DNA of 34,874 nucleotides. It comes from Candidatus Saccharimonadota bacterium. GTDB lineage: Bacteria; Patescibacteriota; Saccharimonadia; Saccharimonadales; Saccharimonadaceae. The notes beneath the pieces were generated by a model that was not told the DNA's origin, did not search any database, and saw nothing but the letters and a program-made list of their open reading frames with translations. The position numbers and the translations under genes are program-made. This document shows positions 25,547 through 29,341 of this stretch, piece after piece (position 1 is the stretch's first letter; each line of letters begins with the position of its first letter). The DNA lies in the NCBI GenBank assembly GCA_017432225.1, contig JAFRJN010000007.1:1-34874 (forward strand), in the 5' to 3' direction.

Positions 25547-26908
25547 TTAAGATTCTTGGAGGAGGCAGCGGACTGGGAGGCCATAGGCTTTATTAAGAGC
25601 GTCAAGTGGGTAAACCTGCGAAGCACTAATGATAAAGCCATGTCCACCTTGTTGGTTTTTAGAAGTCCTAGACCAACCGTAGCCCCATTCGCCAATAACT
25701 TCAGCACCACTATTATTATAGCGACCACTTAATAAAATACCAGGAACATATTGGCCATTAATATTTTCAATAGTAGAAGTTGGATCAGCGACGAGCAAAT
25801 TAGCAGCCGCAGTTACATCGGTGCCACCGTAAGCATTAGCAAGAGCTTCGAACTCGCCACCGGAACCACCAGTAGGAAGCGACCAGCCTACCGGACAGAT
25901 AGAATATATCACCGTAACATTCTCTCCGGTAGCAGAAGTCATGGCTCCAGCAGTGGCAGTGTATGCATTATAATAACAACCGTAAGCTTCCGTACAATAA
26001 TACTCTGAACTGTCGTTTTGATAACGGATACCATCTATTGTATAAAAGTGAAATACCCCATCCGTCAATTCGCCATCCAGCGTAAACCCCCCACTTGAAA
26101 CATTAGAATCTGCGCTCGTAAGCGCAATTGAGTCGGAGAGTTTCCCAAGCTTCAAATTCTGCACCATCCAACATTTACCATCGGCTAGCCTCGCGATGGC
26201 GTAGGTCTGGCCATCTCTACTGTCAACAACGAGGGTAGGGTCGGCAGTACAGAGGGTGGCTTTGTCAGTATCAGAGGCAGAGCCAATTTCTTGCATAGTA
26301 AGTGTAGTAATTAATGGGAGAGCTTTGAAATTTAAATCTAGAGTATAAGTACCAGATGGTTTCTGATAATTGATTTTTGAAGCAAAGGTAAGAGTTGCGC
26401 TACTAGCATTAGTAGCAGTAGAAGAAGAGCTAATCAGACTTCCAGGAGCAAATGGAAAGAAGCTGGTAGTACTAGTAATACTAGTATCACCAGTGATACT
26501 AGAGTCTTCTGGATCTCCCGTAATTCTAAAGCCCCATTTGTTGGTATCAAAGGTTGATTCAGTAACAGTACTTCCTAGTGTTTCTATATAAGCATCAGAA
26601 TAATTAGTATTGATGAGATTGGTAGTATCATTATCGGTATTTACGTATAGTTTATAGCCATTAGAATTATTAGTGCTAACTGTGACTAGTAAATCTTGGG
26701 TATCAAAGGTTTTGTTTAATGGATTTAGATCTAAAGAAACGTTGTCAGAAGAAAATGAAATGTTTAAAGACGGTTCTACTTGGACTTCGTAGGTGACGGT
26801 GGTATCGGCAAAGGCGGAGCTGATATTTACTAGAAGTACTGAAAATACCAATAGCGCGATACCGTATAATATATATCTTTTTCTCAAATTATGTATGGCC
26901 TGTGGCAT
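25547..26908 (-). CDS. FISUMP-domain secreted surface protein
   Basis: This 453-residue protein has an N-terminal signal segment (YGIALLVFSVLLVNISSAFA). Residues 30-200 are a beta-rich N/S/T-rich domain shared with the protein at 7845 (VTYEVQVEPSLNISF, LLVTVSTNNSNGYKLYV, WGFRI, GTYTLDLNF). Residues 210-453 are a FISUMP domain: DSRDGQTYAIARL, DGKCWMVQNL, ICPVGWSLPTGG, ENINGQYVPGILLSG, YGWSRTS and GLPVRCLL. It is paralogous to the fragment at the window start. The role is probably surface display or adhesion; this is an inference. A/T-ending codons dominate, unlike most neighbours. The start has AAGGAG and follows a long structured leader. Confidence 0.85.
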   Translation of the reverse strand: MPQAIHNLRKRYILYGIALLVFSVLLVNISSAFADTTVTYEVQVEPSLNISFSSDNVSLDLNPLNKTFDTQDLLVTVSTNNSNGYKLYVNTDNDTTNLINTNYSDAYIETLGSTVTESTFDTNKWGFRITGDPEDSSITGDTSITSTTSFFPFAPGSLISSSSTATNASSATLTFASKINYQKPSGTYTLDLNFKALPLITTLTMQEIGSASDTDKATLCTADPTLVVDSRDGQTYAIARLADGKCWMVQNLKLGKLSDSIALTSADSNVSSGGFTLDGELTDGVFHFYTIDGIRYQNDSSEYYCTEAYGCYYNAYTATAGAMTSATGENVTVIYSICPVGWSLPTGGSGGEFEALANAYGGTDVTAAANLLVADPTSTIENINGQYVPGILLSGRYNNSGAEVIGEWGYGWSRTSKNQQGGHGFIISASQVYPLDALNKAYGLPVRCLLQES

Positions 26909-26959
26909 TTTTACTCCTTATAATTTTAATTTGTAGGCCATTTTGTAGGTTTTTACTAA

Positions 26960-27112
26960 AAACGGCACCACGAGGTGCAACAATCATATATACTTACAGG
27001 CGTTAACCCATAAAGCACATGATTCCCTCATGATGCCGTTCTTATGTTTTATGGATTACGCCAATTTTAATAAAAATCGGCCGCCTTTTGTAAATATATA
27101 TAATTGTTGCAC
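26960..27112 (-). promoter_or_regulatory. Structured RNA leader with competing terminator (riboswitch-like)
   Basis: The minus-strand transcript should start near 27110. Its first 24 nt (27089-27112) pair without interruption with 26975-26998, using two G-U pairs that are mismatches on the other strand. Inside are a 15-bp helix with one bulge (27048-27062 with 26999-27014) and a hairpin with a GGGAA loop (CAUGA/UCAUG, 27021-27035). Just after the closing helix, GCACC (26974-26978) and GGTGC (26965-26969) form a hairpin followed by CGTTTTTAG. It shares four bases with the closing helix, so the two cannot both form. No known riboswitch class is recognised. Confidence 0.6.
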
Positions 27113-27116
27113 TTTA

Positions 27117-27146
27117 ATTATATCACGCTTTTGTTTCAAAGGTCAA
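27117..27146 (-). promoter_or_regulatory. Promoter of the FISUMP gene leader
   Basis: Minus-strand TTGACC (27141-27146), an 18-bp spacer and TATAAT (27117-27122), which is also preceded by TGA. The predicted start coincides with the 5' end of the closing helix of the leader RNA. Confidence 0.8.
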
Positions 27147-27147
27147 T

Positions 27148-27176
27148 AAAAGTGTTGTAAAATTTACAACACTTTT
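27148..27176. terminator. Perfect 29-bp dyad between femX and the FISUMP promoter
   Basis: AAAAGTGTTGTAAA (27148-27161) and its reverse complement (27163-27176) are separated by one base. The stem has A/T feet and lies 30 bp after the last gene of the cell-wall operon, so it can act as its terminator. It also ends 1 bp from the -35 box of the FISUMP promoter, so an operator role is possible. Confidence 0.6.
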
Positions 27177-27205: not shown

Positions 27206-28225
27206 TTACACATGTCGCTTTTTCTTGCGGGTGGTTTCGACTAGTTTGGTTAGCTTATATTTCAAAGGCGAAAGCACCATATCATGCGCTGGAGTATATT
27301 TGAGCTCCTCGCACCCAAACGACCGTTTAAATTCGCTTACTCCATAGAACCGATGCGAAGTCTCTTCCTTCCCCACAATCCCCCAGAGATTATAGCGCAT
27401 ACATCCGCGCTTTCTCGCTTCATCCATCGCGGCGAGATGTAATAGCGGCGCTGCCGAATACTTGGTCCCGAGCTCGCTCGACACGCCATAATGATAGCTC
27501 GCTTCCGGCCCGTAAAAAATCATAAAGTTCTGCGCCAAAATCTCGCCATCTTTCCTCGCGGTATAGATTAAAATCTCATTGTTCTTCCTAAACGCCTCAA
27601 ATTGTTTAGTCAAAAAACTATCCGAGAATGCCACATATTTTTGCCTTTCAGAATGCAGTTTTTCCAGCTTGCAAAAATCTGCAATATCCGCATCGTCCGC
27701 CGAAGCGCTAATTTTAATTTCATTTCTCTCGGCTTTGCGCAGCTTCCGTCGGAACCCTTGTGACGCTCCAGCCAAAATCTCTTCACGGGATTTCGTAAGA
27801 TCCAAAATCCCGGCATACTCCACCGAAAGATACATCGGCGCCCGTACTAGTCCGTTATCGGCCATAATTTTCAAAGATTTTTCGGACAGTTCCAGCTGTG
27901 GCCTTACCCGCACAAACACACATTTGTGTTTCAGCCCTTCAGAACGGACGTCATCAAACACTTCTCGTACCAACTCCCTGTCATTCCAGTCCAGAAGCGG
28001 TCCGCCCGCCACTGCGAGGTACGTCCCGCGCTTCGCGGTCTCTACTACTCCGGCCCAGGCTCCCACAATAACATCATTTTTAAAAACCAGCCTTCGGACT
28101 ACTTTCTTCCCCCGCGCGAGGTGAAATTCATAAAAATCCCAGCTCTGCAAAAAATTCGCTTCTGGCCTGCCCGCAACAAACCCGTCCCATTCTTCCCGCG
28201 ACGAACAATCAACAAACTCACTCAT
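27206..28225 (-). CDS. FemAB-family aminoacyltransferase (FemX-like), second copy in operon
   Basis: FemX-type enzymes transfer amino acids from aminoacyl-tRNA to the peptide stem of lipid II. The 339-residue protein has two GNAT-like folds: residues with NFLQSWDFYEFH and VVRRLVFKNDVIVGAW in the first, and ILAQNFMIFYGPEASYHYG, RYNLWGIVGKEE and FKRSFGCEELKYTP in the second. A LAGASQGFRRKLRKAER segment between them corresponds to the family's helical part. It is paralogous to the next-upstream FemX (28319..29341), both ending in a KKKRH tail. The start is ATG 28225 with GGGGAG; the upstream GTG at 28246 is less likely. It is the last gene of the operon. Confidence 0.9.
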   Translation of the reverse strand: MSEFVDCSSREEWDGFVAGRPEANFLQSWDFYEFHLARGKKVVRRLVFKNDVIVGAWAGVVETAKRGTYLAVAGGPLLDWNDRELVREVFDDVRSEGLKHKCVFVRVRPQLELSEKSLKIMADNGLVRAPMYLSVEYAGILDLTKSREEILAGASQGFRRKLRKAERNEIKISASADDADIADFCKLEKLHSERQKYVAFSDSFLTKQFEAFRKNNEILIYTARKDGEILAQNFMIFYGPEASYHYGVSSELGTKYSAAPLLHLAAMDEARKRGCMRYNLWGIVGKEETSHRFYGVSEFKRSFGCEELKYTPAHDMVLSPLKYKLTKLVETTRKKKRHV

Positions 28226-28322
28226 TGCACGCTCCCCTTTCCTCACACGGCACTTTTTCTTCCTCGGACAAGGCTTCTTCTAAAGTTTCCTCCAAAGTCT
28301 TTAAGTCACTATCTTTGTTCAT
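28218..28322 (-). CDS. 34-residue acidic peptide between the two femX genes
   Basis: An ATG at 28322 overlaps the stop of the upstream femX as ATGA. The frame runs 34 codons to a TGA at 28218-28220, overlapping the first 8 bases of the downstream femX. The peptide begins MNKDSDLKTLEETLEEALSE, is strongly acidic, probably helical, and ends with two Cys (PCEERGAC). The double overlap and exact fit between two real genes support a coding role. It could be a small partner of the FemX enzymes or a coupling frame that carries ribosomes across. No homologue is recognised. Confidence 0.6.
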   Translation of the reverse strand: MNKDSDLKTLEETLEEALSEEEKVPCEERGACNE

Positions 28323-29341
28323 AAATGCCTCTTTTTCTTCCGCATCGTTTCCACGGCTAAATTTTTCATATATTTGATTTTAGAAATCACCAAATCGTGC
28401 GCCGGCACGAATTCTACTACTTCGCCGCCAAACCCAGTCTTAAAGGTGGTCACCCCGGCATACCGGTGGTGTGGCTGCCCCGCCGGAGCAATCCCCCAGA
28501 GGTTGAACCGCTCGTAGCCGTCTTTTTTGAGGTCTCGCATCGCCTGCCACAAAAGCATATAGGCGCCCGGCAATTTGCGATTAAGTAGTGTCGAAGCGGC
28601 CTCGTAATAATCAGCCTCTAGCCCACTCCCCACAATCAGCCCATACGCCACAGGCTCATTCTCATTTATTACTTTGTAAATCCAAATTTTGTCACTAAAC
28701 GCCTCTCTCTCGGCTAGCAAAGTCTTAAGTGAAGGCGGTACAAAATTTTGTCTTCTTGCTGTCTCTGCCTGCACAGCATGGAATTCTCTGAAAATCTCCT
28801 CGCTATTGTCTCTAGAAACGGTGAGCCCCATTTTGACTCCGCGTCGTACTTCGTAGCGCGTTTGCCTTCGCATACTCGCGAGCATCTCTTCATCCGAGCG
28901 CGTCAAATCTAGTATTACGGTATGTTCCGCGGCGAGATGCATCGGCGATTTTTTGAACCCTAGCCCCGAAAGAATTTGTAGATTCTCCGCCGTGGCGGTT
29001 AACTGCGGACGAATCCTCACAAACACACACTTTTCCTTCGCTGCGATTTCGCTAATTTTGTCCAAAACCTCTCTAGCTACACTTTTGTCTTCCCAATCGA
29101 TTAGCGGTCCGCACGGTATTTCCAGATACCGCCCGCGCTTGGCGTTTCTTACGACCATGGTGGCAAAGCCTTTGCCGTCAAAATTATCATAAATCACTTT
29201 GCTGCCCAAAATTTCGTTCATTCTGCCATATTCTGGTGACTGCAAAAAATTCGCTTCCGGATATTTTTTAACAATTTTGTCCCAATCCGCGATTTTGGGG
29301 TCTGGCGATGTCTTTATTACTCGCTCTTCTCTCGTAAACAT
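28319..29341 (-). CDS. FemAB-family aminoacyltransferase (FemX-like), first copy in operon
   Basis: This 340-residue paralogue of the FemX at 27206 should add an amino acid to the lipid II stem or bridge. Matching blocks are NFLQSPEYGRMNEILG, GRYLEIPCGPLIDW, CVFVRIRPQL, MRRQTRYEVRRG, the AYGLIVGSGLEADYYEA strand pair, RFNLWGIAPAG and FKTGFGGEVVEFVPAHD. Two copies in a row suggest either sequential additions, as with FemA and FemB, or two different amino acids. The start ATG directly follows the aminotransferase stop (TAAATG) with GGAGG 5 nt before, so they are translated together. Confidence 0.9.
   Translation of the reverse strand: MFTREERVIKTSPDPKIADWDKIVKKYPEANFLQSPEYGRMNEILGSKVIYDNFDGKGFATMVVRNAKRGRYLEIPCGPLIDWEDKSVAREVLDKISEIAAKEKCVFVRIRPQLTATAENLQILSGLGFKKSPMHLAAEHTVILDLTRSDEEMLASMRRQTRYEVRRGVKMGLTVSRDNSEEIFREFHAVQAETARRQNFVPPSLKTLLAEREAFSDKIWIYKVINENEPVAYGLIVGSGLEADYYEAASTLLNRKLPGAYMLLWQAMRDLKKDGYERFNLWGIAPAGQPHHRYAGVTTFKTGFGGEVVEFVPAHDLVISKIKYMKNLAVETMRKKKRHL

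Follow-up and report, generated by a model that had tools for sequence, protein, structure and literature searches.

An uncatalogued family of structured RNA leaders upstream of surface-protein genes in gut Saccharibacteria

What purpose is served by a long RNA pairing at the predicted start of a surface-protein transcript in Saccharibacteria? The locus lies on the minus strand of the window, the whole 34,874-nt stretch of DNA that was analysed, and an earlier note had described there a structured leader with a mutually exclusive terminator in front of a FISUMP gene. Judged by comparison across genomes, most of them metagenome-assembled (MAGs), the leader is a real, previously uncatalogued RNA family of gut Saccharibacteria surface-protein messages. 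All of the evidence is comparative. Two features absent from the earlier note are the size and distribution of this family and its best-conserved element, a pairing between an internal loop and the terminator tail.

Fold and promoter of the window copy

The leader opens with 24 nt, GTGCAACAATTATATATATTTACA (27112-27089, minus strand), that pair with TGTAAGTATATATGATTGTTGCAC (26998-26975) to form the closing helix P1. Its two non-Watson-Crick positions are G-U on the minus strand and C-A on the opposite strand. The continuous pairing, as the earlier note had described it, is borne out by the fold of the leader (27112-26958, minus strand), which reaches -63.8 kcal/mol compared with -26.5 +/- 3.3 in shuffled sequences (z -11.3; 0 of 200 shuffles). 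The covariance model gives the predicted strand 157.9 bits and the other strand 25.8 bits. Within P1, a short helix P1b joins GGCG (27085-27082) to CGCC (26999-27002), supported by the fold and by compensatory changes, and a P2 hairpin with a U-rich loop, seen in the fold and in homologues, completes the segment 27060-27085. The next helix, P3, has its strands at 27049-27058 and 27004-27013 and is supported by the fold, compensatory changes and homologues. An inner helix had been claimed at 15 bp; it is present, yet P3 is interrupted and spans about 10-14 bp. The GGGAA hairpin also reported is specific to the window copy and was rejected as a part of the family, where the corresponding segment is a conserved loop element able to pair with the terminator tail. 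This is element A, the P3 apical loop AACGGCATCATGAGG (27026-27040). Its partner, element T (CCTCGTGGTGCCGTTTTT, 26958-26975), directly follows P1.

The last four bases of the P1 3' strand (26975-26998), GCAC, double as the 5' arm of an intrinsic-terminator-like hairpin, GCACC-TCGT-GGTGC followed by CGTTTTT (26958-26978), and T carries its 3' arm and the run of five U (U5). Further downstream are a candidate element D (AAAATGGC, 26935-26944), a Shine-Dalgarno sequence AAGGAG (26914-26919) and, as anticipated, a FISUMP surface-protein gene of 453 aa (25547-26908, minus strand; PF09603, E 5.8e-12). On the other side, a sigma-70-type promoter at 27117-27146 (TTGACC, 27146-27141; 18-nt spacer; TATAAT, 27122-27117) would start transcription within a few bases of the closing helix. 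The arrangement recurs in homologues: the -10 box matches at least five of six positions in 118 of 119, and lies at a fixed distance from the RNA 5' edge in 101 of 119. This agrees with the earlier placement of the structure at the 5' end of the transcript. Just upstream of the promoter is a near-perfect palindrome, AAAAGTGTTGTAAAATTTACAACACTTTT (27148-27176), which resembles a terminator of the preceding gene. Two tandem minus-strand genes directly upstream of the leader (27206-28246 and 28319-29341) are presumably FemAB-type peptidyltransferases.

Copies, distribution and downstream genes

Using the covariance model, we found nine leader copies in the window's own genome, eight of them besides the window copy, and BLAST in the same genome places copies at 67-72% identity. 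Six of these were aligned, and 27 of the 42 consensus pairs show compensatory double changes, in support of the proposal that selection acts on this RNA strand. The model has matches in 30 of 100 relatives, the richest genome having 29 copies; inspection of that genome's other FISUMP genes added four more, for a maximum of about 33 copies in 0.8 Mb and well over 100 copies across related genomes. The covarying homologues on which the earlier note had staked its proposal are thus abundant. A second covariance model detected the leader in 14 of the 143 genera that were sampled from the order. The remaining genera of the same taxonomic family have one copy each, and the four positive genomes in other families have one or two apiece. 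A phylum-wide sample of Patescibacteria outside the order gave no leader matches. Public contigs that match are titled almost entirely as Saccharibacteria MAGs, many from the ruminant gut. At the Rfam 15 gathering score, the window and 20 family loci returned tRNAs only, and a permissive search of the leader region gave sub-threshold matches only, in line with the previous remark that no known riboswitch fits. A phage or viral origin was rejected after the exact pattern gave no match in IMG/VR. A search of open-licence papers turned up none that dealt with FISUMP, or with structured RNAs of Saccharibacteria or Patescibacteria.

In nearly every inspected copy, P1 (about 10-25 bp) encloses P3, often together with P2, whose loop has a run of at least four U in 98 of 118 copies compared with 37 expected. 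The P3 apical loop carries element A across the family. Downstream open reading frames start at a median of 67 nt past U5, and 93% of them have an N-terminal hydrophobic stretch compared with 23-32% of control frames; the downstream genes are, by this prediction, nearly always secreted or membrane proteins. Their Pfam domains include FISUMP, InlB-type repeats, TM2, DUF4352 and a glycine-rich domain, with an OmpA-like match just below the cut-off. Genes that do not fit this pattern are those for RelA/SpoT, an aminoacyl-tRNA synthetase-like protein and a DNA methylase; the few copies that precede housekeeping genes include L143 and L145. In genome G056 the leader is present at four of five further FISUMP genes examined. 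We rejected the idea that FISUMP always comes with the leader, as all six FISUMP genes examined in genome G003 lack it. Since FISUMP genes also occur without it, the leader appears to be an added regulatory module.

Several observations concern the genomic setting of the copies. The leaders of G056 share 60% mean identity (52% when shuffled), while the untranslated sequence after them is up to 100% identical between copies, and we infer that the leaders diverged with their pairing kept as the downstream parts were homogenised. More generally, sequence past the U-tract is near-identical among the copies of one genome whose leaders differ, and contigs often end 100-300 nt 3' of a leader. Together these suggest that surface genes undergo gene conversion or exchange cassettes. 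The compact single-copy leaders of other genera have small membrane proteins downstream and, in two cases, serine recombinases and ATPase genes as neighbours, a setting reminiscent of genomic islands. Two MAGs from rabbit gut, labelled Oscillospiraceae/Dysosmobacter, contain strong matches (90-116 bits). These lie on contigs of 84-161 kb beside a serine recombinase or integrase-like stretch, with Saccharibacteria-like FISUMP/InlB surface genes coming next. In one further Oscillospirales genome the match is weak, and the leader is rare in Oscillospirales MAGs. These copies reflect either cross-phylum transfer or chimeric contigs.

The dispersed copies, the contigs that end just downstream and the near-identical sequence after the leader would also suit a DNA element (an inverted repeat, recombination site or mobile repeat) instead of an RNA, but this is extremely unlikely given that G-U pairing and covariance-model scores are strand-asymmetric, the promoter is locked to P1 and the loop-tail pairing makes no DNA palindrome.

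A loop-tail pseudoknot facing a predicted terminator

Element A (27040-27026) is complementary to T (26975-26958) over 13-16 bp, and because A lies inside P1 and T outside it, their pairing forms a pseudoknot. Across the family, A and T of the same copy form 15.06 of 16 pairs, compared with 13.59 when tails are permuted (maximum 13.89 in 2000 permutations); this comparison slightly favours pairing in cis, since A was placed in whichever register paired best with the T of its copy. Kinship between copies is left uncorrected in the shuffle comparisons. The A-T duplex averages -26 kcal/mol compared with -9 for shuffled tails. Column -10 of the pairing is found as AT 51, GC 42 and TA 9, and column -8 as GC 74, AT 25 and CG 4. 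Both columns fall in the loop of the terminator, where they covary only through A-T, so the terminator cannot explain their covariation. RNAalifold applied to the compact homologues of other genera picked the A-T helix independently (94-176: GC 10, CG 6, UA 2). On these alignments, the A-T pseudoknot is the best-conserved pairing of the family, covarying in distant genera.

The same tail carries the terminator-like hairpin. The window hairpin has a free energy of -7.5 kcal/mol (family mean -6.9), and a terminator search of the window region alone is at chance level (six found, 6.4 expected). Among homologues, arms of at least 4 bp, including ACACC/GGTGT variants, are kept in 110 of 118, and a U-tract of at least five in 110 of 118. 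The hairpin that had been noted for sharing GCAC with the closing helix is therefore conserved. Hairpin and U-tract recur at the same place with eight exceptions, and the conserved, covarying pseudoknot overlaps the terminator 3' arm. As drawn from the sequence, P1 with A-T and the terminator are mutually exclusive, which is the anatomy of a pseudoknot antiterminator. The fourth and fifth U of the tract are conserved in 115 and 112 copies, compared with 68 and 85 for the opposing A, which suggests a role for the U-tract beyond A-T pairing.

We consider it probable, with some reserve, that this leader family acts in cis by transcription attenuation, P1 and A-T preventing the terminator and allowing read-through. 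In this mechanism, P1 would close and A would capture T, so that the terminator could not form and RNA polymerase would read into the gene (ON); if A were unavailable, for example with P3 or its loop bound by some other factor, the short hairpin would form and transcription would stop (OFF). A helix of 13-16 bp should not fit the P3 loop unless upper P3 opens, which makes P3 the likely input point and its opening a possible regulated step. Candidate triggers are a metabolite, a protein, host contact or kinetics only. A-T with P1 is thermodynamically so favoured, and the hairpin so short, that termination would need kinetic control. Further points against attenuation are that the eight copies without an intact local hairpin keep A-T, and that a few copies precede housekeeping genes, as a separate RNA would.

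Those eight copies could instead mean that the stem of the terminator is the A-T helix, a long-range pairing directly adjoining U5 (OFF), and that breaking it gives read-through. The A-T helix stops right at the U-tract, and no pairing in the family is better conserved. We regard this as unlikely, as such a stem has no need of the local GCACC/GGTGC hairpin kept in 110 of 118 homologues, and intrinsic terminators usually rely on hairpins formed locally. Control may also lie at translation, with T paired either to A or to D, a repeat of the A motif further downstream, and the choice settling whether the ribosome site is masked by an anti-Shine-Dalgarno segment. T-D pairing exceeds that of shuffles in 68% of copies (p<0.05), and such pairing in many genomes could mean translational control. 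Ribosome-site pairing covaries between copies of the window's own genome (ATGGCCT/AGGCCAT and ATGACCT/AGGTCAT). In the window, ATGGCCT within the D region (26935-26944) can pair with codons 3-5 (p 0.02), while T-D is weak (p 0.125). Only 30% of copies show significant pairing at the ribosome site, and a hairpin there was rejected as a universal part; a purely translational switch also leaves the U5 tract without explanation and is, on balance, rather improbable. Since T-D pairing occurs in many genomes and the ribosome site is covered in some leaders, the window's included, translational control may add to attenuation in some lineages. Several otherwise different FISUMP proteins of the own genome share an AGGYCATACA start (V/A-I-Q/H; 26901-26895 in the window) that can pair with the leader end, perhaps because the RNA constrains the coding sequence.

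The leader could also be a separate small RNA whose 3' end is U5, or a 5' stabiliser, the gene being transcribed by leak-through. This would account for the leader having its own promoter and terminator and for L143 and L145, whose housekeeping genes have space for promoters of their own. We find it very unlikely: nearly all copies lie a median of 67 nt before a membrane or secreted gene, where a second promoter hardly fits, and in the window the 49 bp from U5 to the start codon leave little room for one.

Relation to known leaders and possible meaning for the cell surface

The attenuation reading has relatives among known leaders. Its likeness to the fluoride (crcB, RF01734) and ZTP (pfl, RF01750) riboswitches is a tail pseudoknot set against an intrinsic terminator. 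In the ZTP riboswitch it is likewise the tail pseudoknot that competes with the terminator. For fluoride, PMC11077080 describes a pseudoknotted aptamer competing with an intrinsic terminator. The conserved aptamer core of either family had no cmscan match in the window or the 20 family loci, and in contrast to both, our leader has a much longer pseudoknot (13-16 bp), a 24-bp closing helix and surface-protein genes downstream. On this comparison, the leader belongs to neither family, and its kind of expression platform is one already known. T-box leaders (RF00230) are similar as attenuation leaders, and in some copies element A has what we take to be a resemblance to the T-box UGGNACCG. We rejected this assignment as there was no cmscan match in the window or the 20 loci. 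The T-box UGG is not conserved, being CGG, AGG or GGG in many copies including the window's, with A column -1 varying between U, C and G, and, one copy excepted, the leader lacks the association with aminoacyl-tRNA genes. Protein-dependent antitermination leaders such as those of PyrR or LicT/SacY also have an alternative terminator, but no matching RNA family was found. In those leaders the competing partner is an adjacent antiterminator hairpin, whereas here it is a distal loop.

The repetition of the leader within genomes also raises the question of cross-talk. In the window's own genome, A-T pairing averages 15.25 of 16 in cis and 11.29 in trans; in G056 both values are 15.17, each copy's A and T being exchangeable with those of the others. 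If A of one transcript paired with T of another, a terminated leader could regulate other surface genes, a trans network that we think quite improbable. Elements that are interchangeable in G056 and largely private in the window's genome mean that lineages would differ in such cross-talk. If true, the network could lead cells to express few surface proteins at once.

What is new here is the RNA family; what is known is its kind of expression platform. Gene regulation has hardly been explored in Saccharibacteria, which are tiny epibionts, and a leader repeated up to about 33 times in a 0.8-Mb genome, nearly always before surface or membrane genes, points to RNA-level control of the host-facing surface. 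Through compensatory mutations in loop and tail, the family offers a concrete handle on cell-surface control.
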